IMG/VR virus record: IMGVR_UViG_3300025168_000263
Coordinates: 1 to 36,303 of that record
From: a virus
DNA length: 36,303 bases
Reading direction: 5' to 3' (one strand)
Shown here: positions 2,235 to 22,937 of the stretch, piece after piece
Layout of the letters: each line of letters opens with the position of its first letter
How positions within the stretch are numbered: position 1 is the stretch's first letter
Notes under the pieces: generated by a model
What the model was told of the DNA's origin: nothing
What the model saw: the letters and a program-made list of their open reading frames with translations, nothing else
The model's database searches: none
Position numbers and translations under genes: made by a program

Positions 2235-4262
2235 TTAACCTTGTGGTTCTGAACCAGGAATTTGTTCTTGTTGTTTTAACTTGTCTTCTTCATCTACAGA
2301 TTCACCAAGACGTTTCGCAAAAAACTCTAAGTCCATTTGTTTGCCTTTTTGTTTTGACTTAGCATCTTGGAGAACTTCATTTAACTGAGTTTTGAATTTT
2401 TCTGTTTCTACTCTTTTACGAGCTCCAACAGTTTCTCTCTCAGATGTTTGTAAGTCTCCGCTAAGTTTCTTTACTTGATTTTCAAGTGTTGCTATGTAAC
2501 TTTGCATTTGCGATACTTGGCTCTTTCTTTGAAGAACACCTTCTTTGTCGAAGATTTCACTTTTCTTTAAAACCTCGACGTCGTCTACCAACCCAAGTTT
2601 ATAAGCATCAAGGTACATATTATATTCTGCCACCTTGTTACTCGGTAAAGTTGAACCTGATATTATACGAATATCATGCTGACCCAATGATATATCATTT
2701 TGAATCGTCATTAATTCGTTTGTTTTGTCATCATATAACCTACTATTAACTGTAAATTCAGTTAAATCGTTATTTGGTTGTACAATTCTAAAAGTCTTTT
2801 TAAATTTATAATGGTCTTTAGCCATATTATAAATAACTTGGCCTACAGTAGCCAAAGCCATTTCAATATCTCTTAATTTTGATTTACCTCTAGATTCTCC
2901 CATTTCTGATAAAAGCATTGTACCTCTAACAGACTCCGGGGCTCCTTCTTTAAATCCTTGTAATAATTCTGGTATACCAAAATTTAAATCTATATATTTT
3001 TCTACCCTGTCAATTAAATAATAAAACTCGCTAGTTAAAGGAGCTGGTTGTGGGTAGTGAGGCTCACCAAATTCTGGATTATATTCAATAACCGCATTTG
3101 GATTAGCCCAATCTTTTTCTAACTGACTTACACTATCTACACTTCCTTCAGGAATTAAAAGTTTTAATCCTGCTGCGGACTGAGCGTGTGACAAAGTTAA
3201 AGAGAATAGCTTGTTTAAAAGCCTTTGAGAGTCTTTAACTTTGTTCACATCTGATTTGGGATAGGGAGTATTAGTCCAAATATTCGTAAATGGAATAATT
3301 GGATATATATCAGTATTTAGAACACGCTCGAATAATAAAACATCGCCTACTGACGAACATTGTTTAATTCTAGTTTGCATTACTTCTTCAACTTCTACTG
3401 CTCCAGAGGTAAATGCCTCTCTACTTGAAGGGTCTTCTAGTGCAGCCGTATAAAATTCTTCGTTAAGTATTTTTTCACTTCCATCTAAAGTATTGAATAC
3501 TCGATAGAAAGGAACCTTAACTTTATAAAACCTATCTAAAACTTGGTATTTTTGATTAAGTTGGTAATCTAAATTTTTTGCTTCAGATGGAGTTATGATA
3601 TTATTGCTATTTTTTAAAGCAGAAGTTGGATAATCTTCTCCATGTAAAGAATTTGTTCCTACTTCAATATCGTCAATTATTTCTTCTAATTCTGAATATG
3701 TATCCAATAACTGTTGCTTTGTTAAAAACGTAGAAAGAATAATTCCAGAAGCATCTGTAAAAAATCTATCTCTAGAAGCCGGGTCTACATAAACCCTAAA
3801 AGGGTCTACATTTTTATACATAACCTCACCTCTGCCGTAATCTGCTTCTGGGTCTATATAAACATACATATACCCAAGTCCCTGTACAGCATAATCATGA
3901 ATTACTTGCTTAAATACTCCATCTCCTTTTGAAATATCCCATATATATTCTAAAATGGTATTCCAAACATTAGATATTCTATTATCAGAGTCTTCCCTAG
4001 CAATAGTGTTAAATCTTGCTGGTCTAGCTGTCAAAAGAGATTTTAATTTATCTACAGCAGCATAAACTCTATCAATAACAAAATCTGCTTGCCCTACAGA
4101 ACGTAAGGCATTAGATTCTTCTGATGTAAAATGATTTCCAAGGACAAAGTCAACTGCATCCCTTGCATCTAAATCCCAAGTTTGCCTTGCATCTCTCCAT
4201 CTTCTAAATAAGCTTTTACTAATTTCAGGCTTGCTTAAGCCTTGATATTCGTCGTATTTTAT
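2235..4262 (-). CDS. Portal protein (P22-like), likely ATA start
   Basis: Portal ring protein through which DNA is packaged and ejected. The frame is open from 4277 to 2235, but the first ATG/GTG/TTG in it is TTG at 4034. The 76 codons upstream of that TTG still read as typical portal N-terminus (WDLDARDAVDFVLGNHF, then RVYAAVDKLKSLLTARP), so translation must begin earlier. The sequence GGGAG at 4273-4269 sits six bases before an ATA codon at 4262-4260, which would give 675 residues. Later sequence (QGFKEGAPESVRGTMLLSEMGESRGKS and flanks) and a coiled-coil C-terminus (about 585-650) fit the family. An ATG-to-ATA sequence error is the alternative. Confidence 0.9.
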   Translation of the reverse strand: MKYDEYQGLSKPEISKSLFRRWRDARQTWDLDARDAVDFVLGNHFTSEESNALRSVGQADFVIDRVYAAVDKLKSLLTARPARFNTIAREDSDNRISNVWNTILEYIWDISKGDGVFKQVIHDYAVQGLGYMYVYIDPEADYGRGEVMYKNVDPFRVYVDPASRDRFFTDASGIILSTFLTKQQLLDTYSELEEIIDDIEVGTNSLHGEDYPTSALKNSNNIITPSEAKNLDYQLNQKYQVLDRFYKVKVPFYRVFNTLDGSEKILNEEFYTAALEDPSSREAFTSGAVEVEEVMQTRIKQCSSVGDVLLFERVLNTDIYPIIPFTNIWTNTPYPKSDVNKVKDSQRLLNKLFSLTLSHAQSAAGLKLLIPEGSVDSVSQLEKDWANPNAVIEYNPEFGEPHYPQPAPLTSEFYYLIDRVEKYIDLNFGIPELLQGFKEGAPESVRGTMLLSEMGESRGKSKLRDIEMALATVGQVIYNMAKDHYKFKKTFRIVQPNNDLTEFTVNSRLYDDKTNELMTIQNDISLGQHDIRIISGSTLPSNKVAEYNMYLDAYKLGLVDDVEVLKKSEIFDKEGVLQRKSQVSQMQSYIATLENQVKKLSGDLQTSERETVGARKRVETEKFKTQLNEVLQDAKSKQKGKQMDLEFFAKRLGESVDEEDKLKQQEQIPGSEPQG

Positions 4263-11920: not shown

Positions 11921-12115
11921 ATGAATAGTTACAAAAATATAACGGCGGTCGCCTTATTAGGTAGAGATATGCAAACAAGTCCAATTAGTGCAGACTTCTC
12001 TTCCTCAGACCGCCGATTTTTGTCAAAGAATTTGCTTATATATATAGCAAGTAAAAAGATAGTTAGCCTTGACGGGTTAGCTATAAATATTAACACTAAA
12101 GACAAAGGAAAATAG
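11921..12115 (+). CDS. Small hypothetical protein with ISAD sequence
   Basis: A 64-residue frame filling the gap between the 80-residue gene (ends 11915) and the amidotransferase (starts 12119). It contains PISADFSSSDRRF (about 21-33), again with SAD, then a hydrophobic stretch LLIYIASKKIV and a basic tail. It lacks a clear Shine-Dalgarno, so translation may depend on coupling to the upstream stop five bases away. Tight packing is the main support. Confidence 0.5.
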   Translation: MNSYKNITAVALLGRDMQTSPISADFSSSDRRFLSKNLLIYIASKKIVSLDGLAININTKDKGK

Positions 12116-14940: not shown

Positions 14941-14965
14941 GTTGCTATTGATAGGTAGTAGATAT

Positions 14966-15009
14966 AGGGTCGGTAATAATGCCGACCCTGTATTTGCGGT
15001 CTTTTTTTT
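14966..15009 (+). terminator. Terminator-like hairpin after amidoligase
   Basis: AGGGTCGG (14966-14973) pairs with CCGACCCT (14982-14989) around TAATAATG. A run of eight T follows only 12 bases later (15002-15009), so the terminator is imperfect. It lies 26 bases beyond the amidoligase stop and probably ends that transcript. Confidence 0.55.
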
Positions 15010-15028: not shown

Positions 15029-15065
15029 CAGCTAAACGTGAAAAGGTTCAGCTAAACGTAAAAAG
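15029..15065 (+). repeat. Tandem CAGCTAAACGTRAAAAG repeats
   Basis: Copies at 15029-15045 and 15049-15065 differ at one base (G/A) and are spaced by 20 bases. Their core AGCTAAACG is related to the AGCYAAATG words at 10173-11143, placing the family on both sides of the amidoligase cassette. Confidence 0.6.
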
Positions 15066-15128: not shown

Positions 15129-15299
15129 ATGAGAAAAGATATGGCGGACAGAAATAAATATAAACAATTAACGACTGGAAATAGGCAGTCGTCGGTAACC
15201 AATCCGACACTCGTTACCTTCATTATAATTGCAAATATATTTGGTTGGCAAACCTCTGTCCGTCGTAAAAAATTAAATAACATAACCGTAGGAGATTAA
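15129..15299 (+). CDS. Possible 56-residue protein (competes with RNA element)
   Basis: A frame from ATG 15129 to TAA 15299, one base before the next gene. It has a short hydrophobic stretch (PTLVTFIIIANIFGW) and a basic end. There is no Shine-Dalgarno at this ATG and only GAGAAAAG before a second ATG at 15141. Because base pairing constrains the same bases, I think a structured RNA is the likelier explanation. Confidence 0.25.
   Translation: MRKDMADRNKYKQLTTGNRQSSVTNPTLVTFIIIANIFGWQTSVRRKKLNNITVGD
15140..15267 (+). ncRNA. Candidate structured RNA, 128 nt, closed multi-stem
   Basis: The ends pair over 13 continuous positions, 15140-15152 with 15255-15267, including GGCGGACAGA with TCTGTCCGTC; two pairs are G-U only if the plus strand is the RNA. 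Inside are a seven-pair hairpin ACGACTG (15171-15177) with CAGTCGT (15186-15192), a six-pair stem GGTAAC (15194-15199) with GTTACC (15213-15218) that competes with GTCGG/CCGAC, and GGTT-GGCA-AACC (15243-15254) next to the closing stem. It ends 33 bases before the ATG at 15301, so it may be a cis-regulatory leader or a separate RNA. No known family is recognised. Confidence 0.55.
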
Positions 15300-15300
15300 A

Positions 15301-15630
15301 ATGAGTAAGAGATATAAAGTAAGAGTAAGTATTCCAATTGAGTATGACACTTCGGAATTAAATAGTTATTTTGAATCTAATGTAGATGTAGAAGCAGATA
15401 GTCAAGAGGGAGCAGTTAATATTGCTATACGTGAGTTTAATGAAAACTACGACATAGACGCAATATATGATGAAATATATGAGGACTTAAAGTCTCAGAT
15501 GTTAGTATGGTTAGACGGAGAGTATGAGCCTGACACCTTTGACAACGACTACTACTTTGCAGAAGAACAAAAACCTAGACCTTTTCCAGGAATGGAAGGC
15601 AAGGGAATAGACGGAGGCAGTAATGAGTAA
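15301..15630 (+). CDS. Acidic hypothetical protein
   Basis: A 109-residue acidic protein with AGGAG before ATG 15301. The N-terminus reads as a beta strand (RYKVRVSIPIEYDTS), followed by a helix (EGAVNIAIREFNENYDI) and an acidic tail ending GKGIDGGSNE. Its stop overlaps the next start as ATGAGTAA. It is the first gene of the run of small early genes and directly follows the structured element. No family is recognised. Confidence 0.7.
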   Translation: MSKRYKVRVSIPIEYDTSELNSYFESNVDVEADSQEGAVNIAIREFNENYDIDAIYDEIYEDLKSQMLVWLDGEYEPDTFDNDYYFAEEQKPRPFPGMEGKGIDGGSNE

Positions 15631-15817
15631 GAAAATAACATCGGGATATCTTAGACAAAAAGCAGAGTTAAGTGGAGTCTTTATATTTATAGACGGAGTA
15701 GAGTATCAAGTAAATACAAGCGAGTTAGACTTAAATCATATTATAGAAGATATAAGTATGGCAGGAGACGATAATGATATGTCAGAGTATCTAAATGAGA
15801 GAGGTAGTAATGAGTAA
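15623..15817 (+). CDS. Small hypothetical protein
   Basis: A 64-residue protein (MSKKITSGYLRQKAELSGVF start) with GGAGG upstream. A short beta segment, GVFIFIDGVEYQVN, is followed by an acidic tail ending NERGSNE. Both its start and its stop are ATGAGTAA overlaps with neighbours, and the SNE ending is the same as in the preceding protein, showing a repeated gene-junction sequence. Confidence 0.65.
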   Translation: MSKKITSGYLRQKAELSGVFIFIDGVEYQVNTSELDLNHIIEDISMAGDDNDMSEYLNERGSNE

Positions 15818-16175
15818 AGAAGCAATTAAACTACAAGCAGACATAGTAAATGCGACTGCAAAACTATATGAATTAGGATTTAGAATACAATGCAATTACA
15901 TATACGGGGCAGGTTGGGCAAGTGAGATAATCAATATCAATGAAATGGAGCAAATTGAATTAGAATCAGAGTCTCGTAATGTTACTCCTGAAACTATAGT
16001 TAAAGATTGGAGCGGAGAATCTTTCCAAGACGACTATCAAGCTAAGTTAGACGCAGAGCAAGAAAAGAATAATGACTATGCTATAGACAATATGACTTGC
16101 GACGATGAAATGGTAATTGACGATGTTGGTCAGATGTATGACCCGACAGAAAGACTAAAAATGGAGGAAGAATGA
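15810..16175 (+). CDS. Acidic hypothetical protein
   Basis: A 121-residue protein. I chose ATG 15810 (GAGAGGTAGTA upstream, and ATGAGTAA overlap) rather than ATG 15795. Residues 1-35 are helical (KEAIKLQADIVNATAKLYELG); the rest is very acidic (NMTCDDEMVIDDVGQ). The stop overlaps the next start as ATGA. No family is recognised. Confidence 0.65.
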   Translation: MSKEAIKLQADIVNATAKLYELGFRIQCNYIYGAGWASEIININEMEQIELESESRNVTPETIVKDWSGESFQDDYQAKLDAEQEKNNDYAIDNMTCDDEMVIDDVGQMYDPTERLKMEEE

Positions 16176-16348
16176 GAACAATAGTAAAATGGAAAGTAGA
16201 TAATGCTATTACGCACTTACAAGAACTACAAGATATATTGAAAGAAATGCAACAAGATAAATCTGGAATAAAGCCTACGACTATAAAATGGTTGTCAGGA
16301 GAAATTGGAATGGCAATAGAAATTCTAGGAGGAAAAGAAGATGAGTAA
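16172..16348 (+). CDS. Small hypothetical protein, 58 residues
   Basis: Begins MRTIVKWKVDNAITHLQEL and ends GMAIEILGGKEDE. Mostly helical. The ATGA overlap at its start, GGAGGAAG ribosome site and ATGAGTAA overlap with the GroES start support a real gene. No family is recognised. Confidence 0.65.
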   Translation: MRTIVKWKVDNAITHLQELQDILKEMQQDKSGIKPTTIKWLSGEIGMAIEILGGKEDE

Positions 16349-16616
16349 AATAAAACCACTAGACAATAGATTACTAGTACAAGCAGACGCAGTAAAAGAG
16401 AAGACCAATAGTGGTATCTTAGTATCTTCTGAGACTCAAAAGAAACCAAACACTGGAGTAGTAGTTGCAGTCGGACCAAAGGTTAAAGCTCTTAAGTCTG
16501 GCGACTATATTACATATCCAGATTATTCAGGAACTGTTGTTGTAACAGACGGAAGCGAATACTTAATAATGAGAGAGACTGAAGTCTTAGCAATTATAGG
16601 AGAATATACAGCATGA
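16341..16616 (+). CDS. groES: Phage GroES-like co-chaperonin
   Basis: A 91-residue Cpn10 protein of normal length. It starts with the family sequence IKPLDNRLLVQ, then the mobile loop region EKTNSGILVSSETQKK (about 20-35) that binds GroEL, then TGVVVAVGP (38-46) and the C-terminal YLIMRETEVLAIIG. It would cap host GroEL; no GroEL is encoded in the window. By analogy with T4 gp31 it may adapt GroEL for folding the phage capsid protein. It sits in the early rightward run, not with head genes. GGAGGAAAA is upstream. Confidence 0.94.
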   Translation: MSKIKPLDNRLLVQADAVKEKTNSGILVSSETQKKPNTGVVVAVGPKVKALKSGDYITYPDYSGTVVVTDGSEYLIMRETEVLAIIGEYTA

Positions 16617-16783
16617 CATTAAAAGACGATTTGATTGAAGACAAATCATTTGAGCCTACACAAATAGTCTCAATGAATAACGAACATATTCAGCTAAAGG
16701 CTGAGGTGGAGGAATCTATAAAAATATTAAACAAGCTAGGATTTGACATAAAGATATGCGACTGTAAGGAGGAGTGTAAATAA
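16613..16783 (+). CDS. Small hypothetical protein, 56 residues
   Basis: Begins MTLKDDLIEDKSFEPTQ and ends ICDCKEECK, with a helical middle and three closely spaced Cys (CDC...C). Starts inside the GroES stop (ATGA) and ends in a TAATG overlap. Unknown function; a metal site is possible but incomplete. Confidence 0.6.
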   Translation: MTLKDDLIEDKSFEPTQIVSMNNEHIQLKAEVEESIKILNKLGFDIKICDCKEECK

Positions 16784-16875
16784 TGGAATTTATTGTAATA
16801 ATAGTTTTAGTTTTTTTATTAATAGTCTATGCAAAGAAAGGCTTAGAAAAACTAGATAAAATGGGAGATGAATAA
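16783..16875 (+). CDS. 30-residue single-span membrane microprotein
   Basis: Nearly all of the first half is a membrane helix (FIVIIVLVFLLIVYA, residues 3-17), followed by KKGLEKLDKMGDE. AAGGAGGAGT lies upstream of the ATG and TAATG overlaps occur at both ends. The positive residues after the helix suggest N-out/C-in orientation. The role could be inhibition of a membrane process or superinfection, but nothing shows which. Confidence 0.6.
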   Translation: MEFIVIIVLVFLLIVYAKKGLEKLDKMGDE

Positions 16876-17048
16876 TGATAGAACACGAAGAGGGAGTTAT
16901 AGAAGTCAAAGATAGAGACGACTGTGTTTGGATGTCAACTTGTTGTGGTGGTAACTCAATGACAGAAGTTATGGAAGACGGCGACATAGGAGTCGCTATA
17001 TGTAGCGAATGTCGTGATTGGGCAGACTTTGAATTAGAGGAAGAATGA
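16875..17048 (+). CDS. Small zinc-ribbon-like protein, 57 residues
   Basis: An acidic protein with Cys17, CC at 23-24, and CSEC at 43-46, enough for one zinc ribbon. TAATG overlap at the start and ATGA at the end. Function unknown. Confidence 0.6.
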   Translation: MIEHEEGVIEVKDRDDCVWMSTCCGGNSMTEVMEDGDIGVAICSECRDWADFELEEE

Positions 17049-17200
17049 CAAAACTGAATAAAGGTGCAGTACCTAGACTCACGCAAGAGATATATTTTAA
17101 GTGTGGCTCAAACGGGTCTAAAAAAATAAACAGACAATTAACTTTAAAAAGATTTGATAAAAAGCTTGGAGAGTTAATGCAATCAACGGAGATTAAATGA
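17045..17200 (+). CDS. Small basic hypothetical protein, 51 residues
   Basis: Begins MTKLNKGAVPRLTQEIYF and is basic and helical in the second half (QLTLKRFDKKLGELMQ). ATGA overlaps at both ends and AGAGGAAGA upstream of the start support translation. No family is recognised. Confidence 0.58.
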   Translation: MTKLNKGAVPRLTQEIYFKCGSNGSKKINRQLTLKRFDKKLGELMQSTEIK

Positions 17201-17448
17201 AAAAGATAGACAATAGAACTACTGGCGACAAGTTAATAGACAGCCTAAAAGTAGAAACAGAAGTGATAGGTTTTAGTCAACAACAGCTAACTTTATATAT
17301 AGCACAGATAGAGGAACTAGTTAGAAAGTTGGCTCACGACTTAGATAGACATAAAGAAGGTTGTAGTATTTTGTCGGAATATTTTAAATATATACCTGAT
17401 GATGAAAAGCAAGAAGTTGATAAAAAGCTAATGAAACTTAATGTATAA
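17197..17448 (+). CDS. Helical hypothetical protein
   Basis: An 83-residue protein, helical throughout (QQQLTLYIAQIEELVRKLAHD), with one Cys and a basic end. It starts in an ATGA overlap. A coiled coil is likely around residues 27-50. No family is recognised. A chance or leader-sized frame follows at 17441. Confidence 0.6.
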   Translation: MKKIDNRTTGDKLIDSLKVETEVIGFSQQQLTLYIAQIEELVRKLAHDLDRHKEGCSILSEYFKYIPDDEKQEVDKKLMKLNV

Positions 17449-17509
17449 AGTTTTAAAGTTTGTATTGCTTAAAGCAAATAAAATTACTAAATTAAAAAAT
17501 GAAAAATAG
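17441..17509 (+). CDS. Possible 22-residue peptide
   Basis: MYKVLKFVLLKANKITKLKN and two more residues. It overlaps the upstream stop and the downstream start, filling an otherwise empty 50-base gap, in keeping with the style of this run. No ribosome site is clear, so it may be chance. Confidence 0.3.
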   Translation: MYKVLKFVLLKANKITKLKNEK

Positions 17510-17681
17510 ATATCAAACATCTTTTGTTATAGACAAAAAGCTTTGGGTAAAGTTTAAGTCTAAAACATTGGAAGAGGGAGTCTCAATCAAGGATAAGTTG
17601 GAGTTTTTAATAACTCAATACGTTAAAGAAAAAAAGGAGAGTAATAATGGGAGCCGTTGGTTTCATATATCCAAGTGGTAA
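17499..17681 (+). CDS. Ribbon-helix-helix-like small regulator
   Basis: A 60-residue protein with the Arc/MetJ-type layout: a beta strand (YQTSFVIDKKL, residues 5-15), helix A (WVKFKSKTLEEG) and helix B (IKDKLEFLITQYVKEKK) separated by a short turn. Such proteins are dimeric DNA-binding repressors. It overlaps the nuclease gene by 35 bases in another frame. The ribosome site is weak. It is a candidate regulator of the recombination module that follows. Confidence 0.6.
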   Translation: MKNRYQTSFVIDKKLWVKFKSKTLEEGVSIKDKLEFLITQYVKEKKESNNGSRWFHISKW

Positions 17682-18528
17682 AAAAGTTACCTTTGAACAA
17701 GTAAATAAAGGCGATGTAGATGTAGTCGAAATGGGTATGTCTTTGCCTACCTTACTTGAAATGTCCAAAGAAAGAGACCCGAATAGAAAGCCGTCCACTA
17801 CGGAGCTACTAACAGGAACTTGCGAGGCGTATCTTAAGAGAACGCAACAGTATTTCATAGACCCACAAGATAGAGCATTTTCTCTAGCTGGAACTATGCA
17901 TCACGCAAGACTGGAACAGCATAGTGATGATAACCTACTTCTTGAGAAGGAATTAGAAGAGTTTAATATAACTGGTATAGCAGACTTATACGATAAAAAG
18001 AATAAGATGTTACTAGACTATAAAAATACTGGCTCTTATAAATGTTCTAAATTATTAGGTATGAATTATAGATTAATACCAGACCCAAGCGGTGCTAAGT
18101 ATAAAATCTCTGGAAGGTGGGGGAAAAAAGGTTCCTCAAAAATGATAAAACAGTGGTACAGAGATGAAGGACTAGCAGATTTTGGAGACTGGGGTTGGCA
18201 GCTAAACTGGTATAGATACCTACTTAGTAAATCCGGACACGAAGTTGATAAGATGTATGTACAAATTACATTGAGAGATGGAGGTATTGCGGTAGCTAGA
18301 GATAGAGGTTTAGATAAGAATATATACTTAATTGAAGTACCTAGATATGATGATAAGGTTCTTGAAGATAAGTTTATATCAGCTAGGGATAAGTTAGTAG
18401 AGTCTTTAGAGACTGGAAACTTACCTAGTAAGTGTACAACCGAAGAAACATGGAACGGACTAAAGTGTAAGTCTTATTGTGAAGTAAGATACTTATGTCC
18501 ATATAACAATGGGAGTATAAATGGGTAA
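17647..18528 (+). CDS. Cas4/AddB-like PD-(D/E)XK nuclease
   Basis: A 293-residue RecB-family nuclease. Active-site motifs are GIADLYD (Asp113) and LLDYKNT (Asp124, Lys126), followed by WGWQLNWYRYLL (Gln185). Cys59 plus Cys274, Cys278 and Cys284 make the four-cysteine set of the iron-sulfur cluster seen in Cas4 and AddB. Family enzymes resect DNA ends to single strands, which suits the annealing and single-strand-binding proteins next in line. AAAGGAGAG precedes ATG 17647. There is no CRISPR array or cas gene nearby, so a recombination role is far likelier than spacer acquisition. Confidence 0.9.
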   Translation: MGAVGFIYPSGKKVTFEQVNKGDVDVVEMGMSLPTLLEMSKERDPNRKPSTTELLTGTCEAYLKRTQQYFIDPQDRAFSLAGTMHHARLEQHSDDNLLLEKELEEFNITGIADLYDKKNKMLLDYKNTGSYKCSKLLGMNYRLIPDPSGAKYKISGRWGKKGSSKMIKQWYRDEGLADFGDWGWQLNWYRYLLSKSGHEVDKMYVQITLRDGGIAVARDRGLDKNIYLIEVPRYDDKVLEDKFISARDKLVESLETGNLPSKCTTEETWNGLKCKSYCEVRYLCPYNNGSING

Positions 18529-19165
18529 AATGAGTGAATTGGACTTAAAAAGACAAGAAGTGGAAGCGATGGAAGTGTCAAAAGGACACTACAATCCAGA
18601 AATATTCGAAGAGACTTCTTTGATTCATAAGCACCAAAATGTCTCAGAAGCACCTACTCCTCAAGACGTAGTTAAAAGTAGAAATGGTTTTGATTATGTA
18701 GACGAAGGATATATGCGTTGGCGTTTAAACCAACATTATCCTATCTGGTCTTGGGAAGTAATAAAGTATGAGACACTTGGAGACAAGGCTATAGTAGTAC
18801 ACGGACGTCTAAAGATTATGGACGAAGGTATACCACGTAGTTTTGACTCAGTAGCAGCACATAGAATAGCACAAGCTAGAAGTGGTTCTGGATATGTAGA
18901 CTTAGGTAATGACCTTAAAGCCGCAAATTCAGACGCATTTAAAGTTGCAGTGAATAGACTATGTAATGTTGCAGACGATGTATATAGGAAACAGTATGTT
19001 GATAAGACTCTTAGTCAAAATCAATATGATAAAATGTTACTTATTATGTCACAACTAGATGTACAAGAAGCAGAGAAAGTAGAAATTGCTTTAGCTGCTG
19101 GTAAAATAAACACAGACAACTACGACAGTGTAGTGTCTAAACTTACGATTAAGGAGAGTAAATAA
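18521..19165 (+). CDS. Rad52-like single-strand annealing protein
   Basis: A 214-residue protein matching the Rad52/Sak-type fold: YMRWRLNQHYPIWSWEV, HGRLKIMD, SFDSVAAHRIA and VDLGNDLKAANSDAFKVAVNRL (about 60-155). These phage proteins pair complementary single strands during recombination-dependent replication. It has a GGGAG site before ATG 18521 and overlaps the nuclease gene by 8 bases, so resection and annealing enzymes are made together. The C-terminal 50 residues are helical and variable. Confidence 0.85.
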   Translation: MGKMSELDLKRQEVEAMEVSKGHYNPEIFEETSLIHKHQNVSEAPTPQDVVKSRNGFDYVDEGYMRWRLNQHYPIWSWEVIKYETLGDKAIVVHGRLKIMDEGIPRSFDSVAAHRIAQARSGSGYVDLGNDLKAANSDAFKVAVNRLCNVADDVYRKQYVDKTLSQNQYDKMLLIMSQLDVQEAEKVEIALAAGKINTDNYDSVVSKLTIKESK

Positions 19166-19725
19166 TGAGTGATGTTGAACAAATGTTAGGAGAACTTGAC
19201 AATAATGTTGCGTACTATAATCCTTCAGACGATACTAGTGGTAAAAAATATGCTACTATCGAAGAAGGTTCATATGAAGCGACTGTTAGTAAGCTAATTA
19301 TTAAGAAAGATGTTATTATAAAAGGTAAATATCTATCTGACATATTTGAAGCAAGCTATACATTAGATGATACTAATCACCCTGATTTAAAGGGTAGAGA
19401 AGTTAAGTCTAAGGGATACTTTAGGTTTAAAGAACCTGATAGTAAAAAATATCCTAACTTAGAATCAAATGACGGAAACAACAAGGGATATATGATATTT
19501 TCAGAAGCTTGTGGATTTGAGATGAAAAAAGATGACCAAGGTAGATATCTTTTGCCTTATGTTATGGAATCTGACATAGCTGGAAATTCAGTAACTATCA
19601 AAGTAATACATGATACATGGAAAGACCAATCTGGAGAAGATAGAGTTACTCCAATTGCTATCAATGTATTTAAATCTAATAGAGTGGTCGATAAGCCATT
19701 ATCTGAAGATGAATTGCCATTCTAA
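19165..19725 (+). CDS. Putative ssDNA-binding protein with SSB-type tip
   Basis: A 186-residue protein, mainly beta in residues 25-165 (an OB-fold is plausible), ending in an acidic tail whose last residues are SEDELPF. The tip resembles the DDDIPF tail through which bacterial SSB recruits partner proteins. Its place between annealing protein and helicase supports an SSB role. AAGGAG lies before the start, which overlaps the preceding stop (TAATG). The fold is inferred. Confidence 0.75.
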   Translation: MSDVEQMLGELDNNVAYYNPSDDTSGKKYATIEEGSYEATVSKLIIKKDVIIKGKYLSDIFEASYTLDDTNHPDLKGREVKSKGYFRFKEPDSKKYPNLESNDGNNKGYMIFSEACGFEMKKDDQGRYLLPYVMESDIAGNSVTIKVIHDTWKDQSGEDRVTPIAINVFKSNRVVDKPLSEDELPF

Positions 19726-19958
19726 TGAAGTATAATATTCAGTTAGATGAAGAGCAGTTTATGGCTTTGATTGAGATGATTGAGAAGCATAGGTGTGAAG
19801 GAGAGGAAGAACTATGTTCTTCAATAAGAACATCTATAAAATCTCAGTTTCAATCTCAGTTCCACAAACATGAAGAAGAGTTAAATTTAGAGGTAGACGA
19901 CATAGTAGAGTCTACTAAAAAAACTCTTGGTCCTGGATATTGCGACAACTGCGACTAA
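19725..19958 (+). CDS. Acidic helical hypothetical protein
   Basis: A 77-residue protein (QLDEEQFMALIEMIEKH, then many E/D) ending GPGYCDNCD, with two paired Cys at the end. It is linked by TAATG overlaps on both sides, so it belongs to the recombination operon. No family is recognised. Confidence 0.6.
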   Translation: MKYNIQLDEEQFMALIEMIEKHRCEGEEELCSSIRTSIKSQFQSQFHKHEEELNLEVDDIVESTKKTLGPGYCDNCD

Positions 19959-20179
19959 TGGAAATATCTGAGTGGAATAAGATAATGAGTTCCTTTCAAG
20001 ACTTGATGGGTTGGGAAAAGGGAATGACAGAGGTGATTCTAACAAAAAGAAGCTCCTTTGGCAATACGAACATAGAAGATATAAATGGACGGGAACTAAA
20101 AGCTCTCGTCCATATTCTTCGCAAACGATATAGGGAGATATTGAATGTCAAATCAAGAAAGAGTAAAGCAAAGACTTGA
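19958..20179 (+). CDS. Basic-tailed small hypothetical protein
   Basis: A 73-residue protein. I chose ATG 19958 (TAATG overlap) rather than the upstream TTG. It reads MEISEWNKIMSSFQDLMG, then INGRELKALVHILRKRYRE and a lysine-rich end. The basic tail could bind nucleic acid. It overlaps the next gene by 35 bases. Confidence 0.55.
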   Translation: MEISEWNKIMSSFQDLMGWEKGMTEVILTKRSSFGNTNIEDINGRELKALVHILRKRYREILNVKSRKSKAKT

Positions 20180-20354
20180 AGAAAATGGGATTGTTTCTAG
20201 TCTTAACTTATTATTTAATTATGGTATTTTACCAAAAGAAAGTACAAAAGCTATTAAAAATCTTAAGAAAGATGGATATATTATATTTTCTACTAAAACT
20301 ACCTGGAACTACACTCATGTATGGCCAGATTGCATTAATAATAGTATATTTTAA
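20145..20354 (+). CDS. Small winged-helix-like protein
   Basis: A 69-residue protein with AGGGAGA before ATG 20145. Residues 15-60 (SSLNLLFNYG, then STKAIKNLKKDGYIIFST and WNYTHVW) read like helix, recognition helix and beta wing of a small winged-helix domain. This is a pattern call, not a family match. A longer frame at 20176 is an overlapping shadow. Confidence 0.5.
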   Translation: MSNQERVKQRLEENGIVSSLNLLFNYGILPKESTKAIKNLKKDGYIIFSTKTTWNYTHVWPDCINNSIF

Positions 20355-20462
20355 ATATAAAGAACTAGAAGATATCTATATGACTACATACATACTTAGG
20401 CGATACTTATATCCAATAAATAATTTTAAGAGCATATAGAGGCATTCTAGAAAGGAAAATTT

Positions 20463-20870
20463 GTGAAAGACTTAATAAAACATAGAAAAAGGTTTAATCA
20501 GCCTATAGTTTTTAATAAACTACAAGATGGAGTTATATCTCCTACAGATATAGATTTTTGTTTTGAAGTTGATAATAAATTCTTACTAATAGGAGAATGC
20601 AAAGTAGAGGGTAAGGCTTTAACCGTTGGACAAAGACTGGTAATGGAAAGAATAGTGGATAGCTGGCACAACTCTGGCTATAAGAAATTAGCTATAGCAT
20701 ATTTTGTTACTCATAATTTTGATACATCGGAAGATATTGTATTAGCTGATACTAGAGTAGAATCTGTTTACTATAATGGAGAGTGGATAACTAAGAATAT
20801 AAGATTTAAAGATAGTATTAAACTACTAGCAGAAAGATGGGATATAAATAAATTAAAAAATTTGAAATAA
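20463..20870 (+). CDS. PD-(D/E)XK-like small nuclease
   Basis: A 135-residue protein starting at GTG 20463, with AAAGGAAAA upstream. It carries TDIDFCFEV (Asp31) and LLIGECKVEG (Glu45, Lys47), with Gln57 next, the D...ExK...Q pattern of PD-(D/E)XK enzymes. The motif spacing is short but normal for small resolvase or restriction-like folds. It lies just before a second small nuclease. A structure-specific or repair nuclease is likely; the substrate is unknown. Confidence 0.65.
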   Translation: MKDLIKHRKRFNQPIVFNKLQDGVISPTDIDFCFEVDNKFLLIGECKVEGKALTVGQRLVMERIVDSWHNSGYKKLAIAYFVTHNFDTSEDIVLADTRVESVYYNGEWITKNIRFKDSIKLLAERWDINKLKNLK

Positions 20871-20906
20871 GTTGACTATAATAAAGGCAAATTATTAAAT
20901 TAGAAT

Positions 20907-21248
20907 ATGGCAAGCAAATCAAAAGCAAAAGGTAATAGGTTCGAAAAGGAATGCGTCCAAATAGCTGAACAGCTAGGATTCTCTTCTAAGAGAGCTTGGG
21001 GAAGCGACGGGAGAAGCTTAGGTCTTTCCTCTGAAGTAGATATAGTTATTAATTACTTACTTGACAATGAAACTTCTAGAGAGATGAAGGTTCAGTGTAA
21101 GGTTAGAAATAAAATAGCACAGTATTTATTACCTCCAGATGATTGCGACATTACCCTTGTAAAGCAAGATAGGGGTGAAATATATGCCACCATTCGATAT
21201 AAAGATTTGTTGGAATTAATTCAACTAACTTTTCAATTACAGAAATAA
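20907..21248 (+). CDS. Hjc-like Holliday junction resolvase
   Basis: A 113-residue protein with KGNRFEKECVQIAEQLG (Glu13 region), then VDIVI (Asp45) and KVQCKVRNK (Gln63, Lys65), the signature of Hjc-type phage and archaeal resolvases. It would cut four-way junctions from recombination or before packaging. The ribosome site is poor. A TTGACT at 20872 suggests an internal promoter of weak quality. The neighbouring 20463 protein has a related catalytic pattern. Confidence 0.78.
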   Translation: MASKSKAKGNRFEKECVQIAEQLGFSSKRAWGSDGRSLGLSSEVDIVINYLLDNETSREMKVQCKVRNKIAQYLLPPDDCDITLVKQDRGEIYATIRYKDLLELIQLTFQLQK

Positions 21249-21271
21249 CATAATAAAGAAAGGGAGTTGTT

Positions 21272-21622
21272 ATGACAGATGGCTATTATAAGTCCAAGGA
21301 AGCTTGGCGACAAGAAAAATCAGAGTTTATGTCTAAATATTTATACATGAAACAAATTGACCCCAAGGGGTACAAAGATTGGTTTGATAAAGAAGCAATA
21401 AATAAATATATTAATGGAGAGATTAATGCATACTGGAACACCCAGTTTAAAAAACCTTCACACGAAAAATACTCTATGGTAAGAGTTCCAACTAGATGCC
21501 CTAAGTGTAAAAGAGCTTGGGCTATTGAATTAAAAAGAAATAGATTTAGTCCCGCATTTTTAGACCGGGAGGTTTATCACAATATTCCAATGATAAAAGG
21601 AGATTGTCATGAATGTAAATAA
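21272..21622 (+). CDS. Zinc-ribbon hypothetical protein
   Basis: A 116-residue protein with CPKC (75-78) and CHEC (near the C-terminal end, 112-115), a single zinc ribbon, and a helical N-terminal half (YKSKEAWRQEKSEFMSKY). GGGAG lies 5 bases before ATG 21272. It overlaps the helicase start by 14 bases. A role as helicase or primase partner is suggested by position only. Confidence 0.65.
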   Translation: MTDGYYKSKEAWRQEKSEFMSKYLYMKQIDPKGYKDWFDKEAINKYINGEINAYWNTQFKKPSHEKYSMVRVPTRCPKCKRAWAIELKRNRFSPAFLDREVYHNIPMIKGDCHECK

Positions 21623-22937
21623 GCAACAAGCTTTATCTATACATAGTCCTGAGTCAGAACAAGCATTGCTAGGTTGTATATTAGTAGATGAATCTTGTTT
21701 TGATATAGTAAAAGACTGGATTCCAGAGAAAGATGTGTTTTATGAACTACAACATCAGGAGATTTGGGAATGTATAATATCTTTAAAGAAAGAGAATATA
21801 CCAGTAGATTTTGTTAATGTTTCATCTAAGTTAGATGGAATGACATATTATCTAACAGGATTAGCCGAGAAGGTTCCTACTACTGCTAACTCAGAGTCTT
21901 ATGCAAGGCAGCTTAATCAAGACTGGTTAAGAAGGAAGCTTGTTACTCAATCTGAACAAATAGCAGAAAAAGCTTTGGACAACACTAGGGATATTAATAC
22001 TTTGTTAGTAGATGTACACGATACAGCTAGTTCTCTTCTTAATTTAGAACCTGGACAGAAGTTTGACTTAGAATCACTATTAGAGGCAACTAAGGCTTCT
22101 ATGTTTGACAGAAAGAATATGACAAAAACAGGATTGAAGCCTCTTGATGATATAATAAGTGGAATGACAAAGGGAGAAATAACTATATTTGCTGGAAGAC
22201 CTGGTAATGCTAAAACTACTTGCGTCGCAAACATAGCTAGAAACCTAGTTCTTTCAGGTAAAAAAGTTGTTATGTTTAATAGAGAAATGCCTAATACTGA
22301 AATGATGAAGAAATTTATTGCTATGGAAGCAGATGGAGTAACATATCATATGTTAAGGCATAATGCAGTTACTAATAAAGATATAATTCAAAAAAGTTTA
22401 AACGTAATTAAAGAAAAATATACTAACAAGTTATTTATGTTTGATAATATTCGTAATTTAGAGGGAACTTTTAGGGAGATTAGACGTATAAAGCCTGATA
22501 TAGTTATCGATGACCATATAGGACTTATTGAGTATGCTAATAATGATATGAGAGATTTAAGACATAAGATAGCGGACACATCGAGAAGATATAAATGGTT
22601 ATGTAAGTCAGAGGATATATCAGTTATTCTCGTATCTCAACTTAATCGTAATATAGAGTATAGAACAGAACGTATTCCTAAGCTTAGTGACTTAGCTGAA
22701 TCTGGTAATCTAGAGCAAGACGCAGAGATAGTAGCATTTACACACTACCCTTGGACAGTTAACTTTGAGCATTCAAAGCATGGAAGATATGGATTAGATA
22801 TAGTAGTAGCAAAGAATAGATATGGTTCTACTGGAAAGGCAACTGTAGGATTCTCTCCTGACACTTGTACTTTATACGATACGGTTGAGCAAGCAGAAGC
22901 TTGTGATGCCGGACCTATGCCCGACGTTCCGTTTTAA
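21609..22937 (+). CDS. DnaB-like replicative helicase
   Basis: A 442-residue protein. The N-terminal domain (SPESEQALLGCILVDESCF, about 13-31) is the DnaB helical domain. The RecA-like domain has Walker A GRPGNAKT (196-203), Walker B IVIDDHIGLI (298-307) and LVSQLNR (341-347, sensor Gln344). It unwinds DNA at the fork as a hexamer. There is no DNA polymerase or primase in the window. The C-terminus ends MPDVPF, similar to the tip of the SSB-like protein. AGGAG lies before ATG 21609. Confidence 0.93.
   Translation: MNVNKQQALSIHSPESEQALLGCILVDESCFDIVKDWIPEKDVFYELQHQEIWECIISLKKENIPVDFVNVSSKLDGMTYYLTGLAEKVPTTANSESYARQLNQDWLRRKLVTQSEQIAEKALDNTRDINTLLVDVHDTASSLLNLEPGQKFDLESLLEATKASMFDRKNMTKTGLKPLDDIISGMTKGEITIFAGRPGNAKTTCVANIARNLVLSGKKVVMFNREMPNTEMMKKFIAMEADGVTYHMLRHNAVTNKDIIQKSLNVIKEKYTNKLFMFDNIRNLEGTFREIRRIKPDIVIDDHIGLIEYANNDMRDLRHKIADTSRRYKWLCKSEDISVILVSQLNRNIEYRTERIPKLSDLAESGNLEQDAEIVAFTHYPWTVNFEHSKHGRYGLDIVVAKNRYGSTGKATVGFSPDTCTLYDTVEQAEACDAGPMPDVPF

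Follow-up and report, generated by a model that had tools for sequence, protein, structure and literature searches.

The locus and its phage group

The window, that is, the whole stretch of DNA analysed, is the IMG/VR virus record IMGVR_UViG_3300025168_000263, 36,303 bases long. PHROG matches in the window were to major head protein, portal, terminase, DnaB-like helicase, GroES, glutamine amidotransferase and amidoligase, and at 17647-18528 to an exonuclease / CRISPR-associated protein, here termed Cas4-like. The element described below (15140-15267, plus strand) lies 3' of an operon with the amidotransferase and amidoligase genes and 5' of a gene without PHROG or Pfam match. An earlier sequence-only reading had pointed to paired repeats upstream of the element and to a gap of 33 bases before the gene at 15301, and both are present. 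The features of the region, all on the plus strand, are as follows.

14958..15007, plus strand: intrinsic terminator ending the upstream operon (amidotransferase and amidoligase genes), an 18-pair stem (14958-14997) and then a T run
15029-15039 and 15049-15059, plus strand: paired direct repeats CAGCTAAACGT, 20 nt apart, 5' of the element, candidate operator
15129..15299, plus strand: leader ORF of 56 aa, beginning with an ATG at -11 relative to the P1 foot, with another in-frame ATG at 15141; its TAA stop and the next ATG are one base apart
15140..15152, plus strand: closing stem P1, 5' strand (fold, covariation)
15165..15170, plus strand: CAAUUA, pairing with UAAUUG 15226-15231 in the predicted fold, within a conserved AUAAACAAUUA block (fold, alignment)
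15172..15191, plus strand: hairpin P2, CGACUG-GAAAUAGG-CAGUCG, loop ending in a conserved AGG (covariation)
15192..15207, plus strand: hairpin P3, UCGG-UAACCAAU-CCGA (covariation)
15217..15219, plus strand: CCU, candidate pseudoknot partner (PKa) of the P2-loop AGG 15183-15185 (complementarity against shuffles)
15241..15247, plus strand: UUGGUUG, candidate pseudoknot partner (PKb) of the P3 loop UAACCAA 15196-15202 (complementarity against shuffles)
15243..15254, plus strand: hairpin P5, GGUU-GGCA-AACC, stacked on the P1 3' strand and holding a nearly invariant UGGC (fold, alignment)
15255..15267, plus strand: closing stem P1, 3' strand (fold, covariation)
15290..15294, plus strand: AGGAG, Shine-Dalgarno of the gene that follows, unpaired in the predicted fold (0.89 for AGGA)
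15301..15630, plus strand: first gene 3' of the element, 109 aa

The direct repeats 5' of the element are a possible operator. Short repeats of other sequence lie 5' of P1 in some relatives, and L131 and L148 carry GAGCTCGAATA repeats at a similar position. The 38 bases before the gene 3' of the element (15266-15303) are 82% identical to 1430-1467 of the minus strand, before the major capsid gene, and the two stretches are perhaps a common ribosome-binding leader.

None of the INPHARED phage records matched the element DNA or the Cas4-like protein, and for the terminase, helicase and amidotransferase all phage matches were below 60% identity. On these grounds the phage clade appears to be uncultured. 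OM43 phages are reported to carry amidoligase and amidotransferase genes (PMC10580990), a likeness that may serve as a host lead and is no test of the host. A host search over species genomes gave six contigs by scan, with a best covariance-model match of E 0.31, and named no host.

Fold, covariation and distribution of the element

The plus-strand fold of 15140-15267 had a predicted free energy of -40.8 kcal/mol, compared with a mean of -22.4 (sd 3.5) for shuffled sequence (z -5.28), and 0 of 200 shuffles were as low. The minus-strand fold was weaker (z -4.3). The sequence-only reading had proposed a closing stem of 13 pairs with two G-U pairs that would work only on the plus strand; the stem is present as described, and over the conserved stems of the relatives G-U cells outnumbered A-C cells by 20 to 6. 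The seven-pair hairpin of that reading corresponds to P2, and its GGCA-capped stem is kept as a short hairpin with the nearly invariant UGGC. Its six-pair stem with a competing alternative fared differently: the minimum-energy fold does contain GGUAAC/GUUACC, but the hairpin that is conserved and covaries is P3, the alternative that overlaps it. Exact GGUA(A)/(U)UACC pairing was found in 6 of the 22 sequences scanned (the window, L130, L102, L084, L132 and L093).

Relatives were collected by viral contig scans, which gave 12 loci through the next-gene protein, 8 through the amidoligase, 11 through a core DNA pattern and 49 through a Cas4-like protein alignment. A covariance model, R1, was built from an alignment of 21 distinct elements. 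It scored 67-117 bits on the plus strand of 22 distinct long elements between the amidoligase and the next gene (site 1), while the minus-strand match of the same element, where present, scored 17-29 bits.

Across these 22 elements, 95.2% of the 483 cells of P1, P2 and P3 were paired and 20 of the 22 pairs were doubly changed, in an alignment fitted to the structure, with 0 of 500 shuffles as high. Doubly changed cells numbered 128 against 40 in shuffles. When the partner strand was slid, pairing in this structure-fitted alignment dropped to 31-49%. A MAFFT alignment, which was not fitted to the structure, gave 93.0% paired cells, 20 of 22 pairs doubly changed and 30-49% pairing when slid. The number of further pair types showed no excess over shuffles (176 of 500 as high; 488 of 500 for the MAFFT alignment). 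P2 was paired in 98.2% of cells, with double changes in all five consensus pairs, and P3 in 97.3%, with double changes in four of five. The letters of P1 are almost wholly different between groups, for example GGCGGACAG/CUGUCCGUC as against GUGGUGGAUA/UAUCCACCAC. The RNA fold formed by P1, P2 and P3 is thus under selection.

Two pseudoknots are suggested by complementarity against shuffles, rather than by strong covariation. PKa had a cluster-weighted score of 83.5 against 72.5 (sd 5.1) in shuffles, 15 of 1000 being as high; its scoring region started one column late, so that some PKa scores are low estimates. PKb scored 86.5 against 66.7 (sd 7.3), with 1 of 1000 shuffles as high. The AGG-CCU pairing of PKa is absent in L117 and L137, and PKb is down to three pairs in L132, L135 and L084. 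PKb overlaps the GGCA-capped hairpin P5, so that the two would compete and may alternate.

R1 matched 29 of 50 whole phage records at E 0.01 or better. There was one copy in 28 of these records, and two only in that of L132. Long forms measure 114-135 nt and occur mostly at site 1; across all forms the length is 62-135 nt. In seven loci (L108, L109, L116, L119, L120, L132 and L140) a copy lies at another site (site 2), some 1.45 kb past the Cas4-like gene, with a P1 that differs from that of site 1 (UUAUUCCCUUCUC/GAGAAGGGAAUAA and variants). L132 has the element at both sites, and the sequence of L108 stops short of site 1. In the other five site-2 carriers (L109, L116, L119, L120 and L140), which had no hit at site 1, inspection of site 1 revealed no visible element. 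L120, which carries its copy at site 2, has a terminator-like hairpin and no element at site 1 (3700-4200).

Short forms of 62-66 nt, with only P1, a hairpin and UGG, occur at site 1 in L104, L105, L107, L115, L118, L131, L136, L148 and L150, and further short forms in L106, L125, L129 and L139; these were assigned by position, P1 and the UGG core, since R1 was near chance where it matched (E 0.11-2.1). Divergent forms (E 0.001 to 1.9) lie at site 1 in L133/L134 and further downstream in L144-L147. The next genes at site 1 fall into seven sequence clusters, and the element is retained throughout.

The core pattern GCAAATA..TTGGTYTGGCR was found in 40 loci, 10 of which carry a long or short element by covariance model (L153, L163, L164, L173, L176, L178, L180, L181, L183 and L186); the remaining loci look like chance. 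A P1 DNA pattern with a free gap was tried and rejected: it returned 68 viral contigs, which were taken as chance inverted repeats because none of them resembled the element in a blastn search.

A leader frame across the element

An ATG at -16 to +2 of the P1 foot opens a frame past P1 in 29 of the 35 site-1 copies listed, which come from chosen records; identical or near-identical copies (e.g. L073-L076, L085, L112, L114, L123 and L127) were left out, as were L134 and L150. The six exceptions are L084, L107, L115, L131, L148 and L133, and in four of these (L107, L115, L131 and L148) other frames are open, beginning at GTG, TTG or an ATG further away. A next start was assigned in 28 copies; relative to it the leader stop ends at -8 to +11 nt in 27 of them, and in the remaining copy the overlap is 29 nt (+29). 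The commonest arrangement is a four-base ATGA overlap. Under dinucleotide shuffles the probability of such openness was 0.008-0.13 in 14 representatives, which are related, so that these values are not independent and their product would be invalid.

The encoded peptides are under far less constraint. Substitutions at the three codon positions numbered 195, 163 and 249, a weak bias to the third position, and pN/pS of the frame was 0.72 overall and 0.38-1.02 by cluster. Compensating indels keep the frame within clusters A and E; relatives in which this is seen include the window against L130 and L141 against L143. The peptides are unlike between clusters and vary in hydropathy (highest 17-residue mean 0.26 to 1.85). 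The frame is thus kept open and ends at the next start, while the peptide is nearly free to vary.

An ATG-started leader ORF is absent in L084, L133, L144-L147 and the site-2 copies other than L108, so the ORF is not essential everywhere. L084 keeps the helices with no frame open across the element. In L133 and the site-2 copies of L116, L119, L120 and L140, the search made found no start codon that opens a frame across the element; at site 2 of L132 the frame starts from TTG, and in L108 from an ATG near P1. Because the fold is kept in L084 and in site-2 copies that lack the frame, we regard it as the more general feature.

The sequence-only reading had treated the RNA and the overlapping 56-codon frame as alternatives, the latter as the feature that might be conserved in place of the stem. 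Most site-1 relatives do keep the frame open, but its amino acids show little constraint and the fold persists where it is missing. The RNA is therefore best read as the primary feature, and the frame as a coupled leader ORF additional to the fold.

Possible function and relation to known systems

The sequence-only reading had left open whether the element is a riboregulator, a separate ncRNA or a processing signal, and knew of no family that fits. Covariation supports a functional plus-strand RNA, and the absence of a known family held in the searches made. Rfam 15 at the gathering score had no match for the whole window or for six whole loci; with E-value thresholds there were chance-level matches only (snR57, E 0.6; mir-651, E 9.3) and none for L121. 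A ribozyme, a reading raised by the architecture, likewise had no match among the Rfam models, and ARAGORN found 0 tRNA or tmRNA over the window. No description of such an element appeared in the titles and abstract openings covered by a literature search, and one may have been published elsewhere. Of the options named, a cis-acting leader has the most support, since predicted promoters are close by and a gene starts directly 3' of the element.

In 12 of 30 site-1 copies the best promoter match has a TTGAC[A/T] -35 box, a spacing of 17 nt and a -10 box whose end is 5-31 nt upstream of P1; the match of the window itself is weak (score 4.7). The Shine-Dalgarno of the next gene was recognisable in 25 of 30 copies, with a median unpaired value of 0.79 and values of 0.5 or more in 21 of the 25. 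Shine-Dalgarno sequestration at site 1 was not supported, since the Shine-Dalgarno is mostly unpaired in the predicted folds, and no terminator was found between element and gene. The element resembles riboswitches in its compact 5' leader fold, candidate pseudoknots and conserved core, but with the Shine-Dalgarno unmasked no classical expression platform is visible at site 1. It differs from them also in having next genes of several clusters and no Rfam match. In contrast to site 1, the site-2 copies L119:8247-8381 and L132:8310-8442 have the next-gene Shine-Dalgarno in the 3' strand of P1, predicted fully paired (unpaired 0.0).

Predicted accessibility from the AUG to +17 averaged 0.65 for the first 60 nt and 0.38 for the full leader, which gave the lower value in 12 of 16 copies; the comparison is partly circular and ran in the opposite direction in 4 of 16 (L132, L113, L141 and L143). 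The predicted drop fits co-transcriptional loading followed by closure.

We propose that the element is a structured, promoter-proximal, cis-acting leader RNA of the early operon which, with its leader ORF, acts as a fold-or-ribosome switch, a reading to which we give slightly less than an even chance. The leader start codon sits at the foot of a P1 of 10-14 pairs, no further from this stem than a ribosome footprint, and the transcript would start near the P1 foot. A ribosome could load at the leader AUG on the nascent RNA, translate through the element and hand over to the next gene. With P1 closed, and with P2/P3 and the pseudoknots formed, the leader start would be masked and the folded RNA would set expression. 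Fold and ribosome transit would be mutually exclusive, giving a switch for early-operon expression that might be tipped by a ligand, by a protein, by growth state or solely by kinetics. Control through the leader ORF, and not through direct masking, is proposed because the Shine-Dalgarno of the next gene is mostly free. The element is taken to serve the operon and not one gene because the site-1 next genes fall into seven clusters.

The proposed switch shares with leader-peptide and uORF-coupled operon leaders, for which the short uORF of iraD is an example (PMC5574718), a short upstream ORF with predicted translational coupling to the next gene, the stop adjoining or overlapping the next start in nearly all copies. 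However, the ORF is here embedded in a covarying multi-helix RNA that is also found without it.

A 5' stability or processing element is a possible, though rather improbable, alternative. P1 would then sequester the 5' end of the early mRNA at site 1, or form a cleavage or protection site within the operon at site 2, and shield the downstream RNA from nucleases. The P1 foot near predicted starts, the site-2 copies between genes of one operon without an obvious promoter, and the retention of P1 as the most widely kept part, down to the short forms, are all in its favour. However, a simple protective stem needs no conserved UGGC, AGG and CAAU loops, nor a leader frame ending at the next start.

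An independent small RNA that acts in trans after excision from the leader or the operon would be consistent with the single copy in nearly all matched records, the alternative sites and the closure by a stem of its own. We consider it unlikely, since no terminator follows the element, which lies just 5' of a gene and is crossed by the leader frame, and since interiors and total length differ among copies.

A processive antiterminator that, as the put RNA of phage HK022 does, acts on RNA polymerase appears less plausible still. The put RNA (putL, putR) is described as about 70 nt long, with two stem-loops, and as binding RNA polymerase (PMC9378689). Like put, the element would be a structured RNA that acts in cis close to where early phage transcripts begin; its length of 62-135 nt and its independence of the gene that follows also favour this reading. 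However, its enclosing stem, three covarying helices, candidate pseudoknots and leader ORF, and the 114-135 nt of its long forms, are unlike put, and there is nothing obvious to read through, since no terminator-like site was found on the plus strand at 15300-22937 of the window.

A small-protein gene whose mRNA folds by chance would account for the open frame in most site-1 copies, but covariation far above controls, a pN/pS that reaches 1.02 in one cluster and the persistence of the fold in L084 and at site 2 in the absence of the frame make it very improbable. Type I toxin mRNAs, of which hok is one, hold a short ORF within a structured RNA, as the element does. In others such as timP the translation of this ORF is described as set by structure and a pseudoknot (PMC11228461). 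However, the leader peptides of the element are not conserved small hydrophobic toxins, their sequence and hydropathy being varied, and the ORF is followed by an operon. A structure acting as single-stranded DNA, for example in replication or recombination, is hardly credible: G-T pairs are tolerated in DNA too and the region lies 5' of replication genes, but the cumulative GC skew, with extremes near 9 and 23 kb and not at 15 kb, does not support a replication origin, and the element is closely associated with a predicted promoter and a start codon.

A second structured RNA (E2) lies just upstream of the glutamine amidotransferase gene.

11943-12015, within ORF 11921-12115: E2, counterpart in the window
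L131:1547-1627, L150:1521-1601, L121:1676-1757 and L135:1265-1345: E2 copies in relatives

Thirteen aligned copies of E2 have 21 predicted pairs, 14 of them with at least one double change, and the invariant blocks GUCG and UCCUUUC. UCCUUU is complementary to the AAAGGA Shine-Dalgarno of several copies. An ORF often runs across E2 as well, and in many copies its end falls 3 nt short of the next start. The L131 copy had no match in Rfam.

Two different folds with the same layout suggest that the layout itself matters. We tentatively suggest a family of fold-or-translate leaders, in which different RNAs stand at two early gene blocks (the element and, before the amidotransferase, E2), often threaded by an ORF whose openness and stop position would matter and whose peptide would not; ribosome transit would be the signal that sets early operon output. 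The element represents an RNA family, unrecognised in four Rfam scans, in an apparently uncultured phage group. It is under an unusual double constraint, in that the helices are kept by compensatory changes and the crossing frame is kept open without its amino acids being kept, so that a natural phage leader offers a direct test of the proposed competition between ribosome and fold. That these genomes also carry E2, with its matching layout, points to a general strategy and not a single case.
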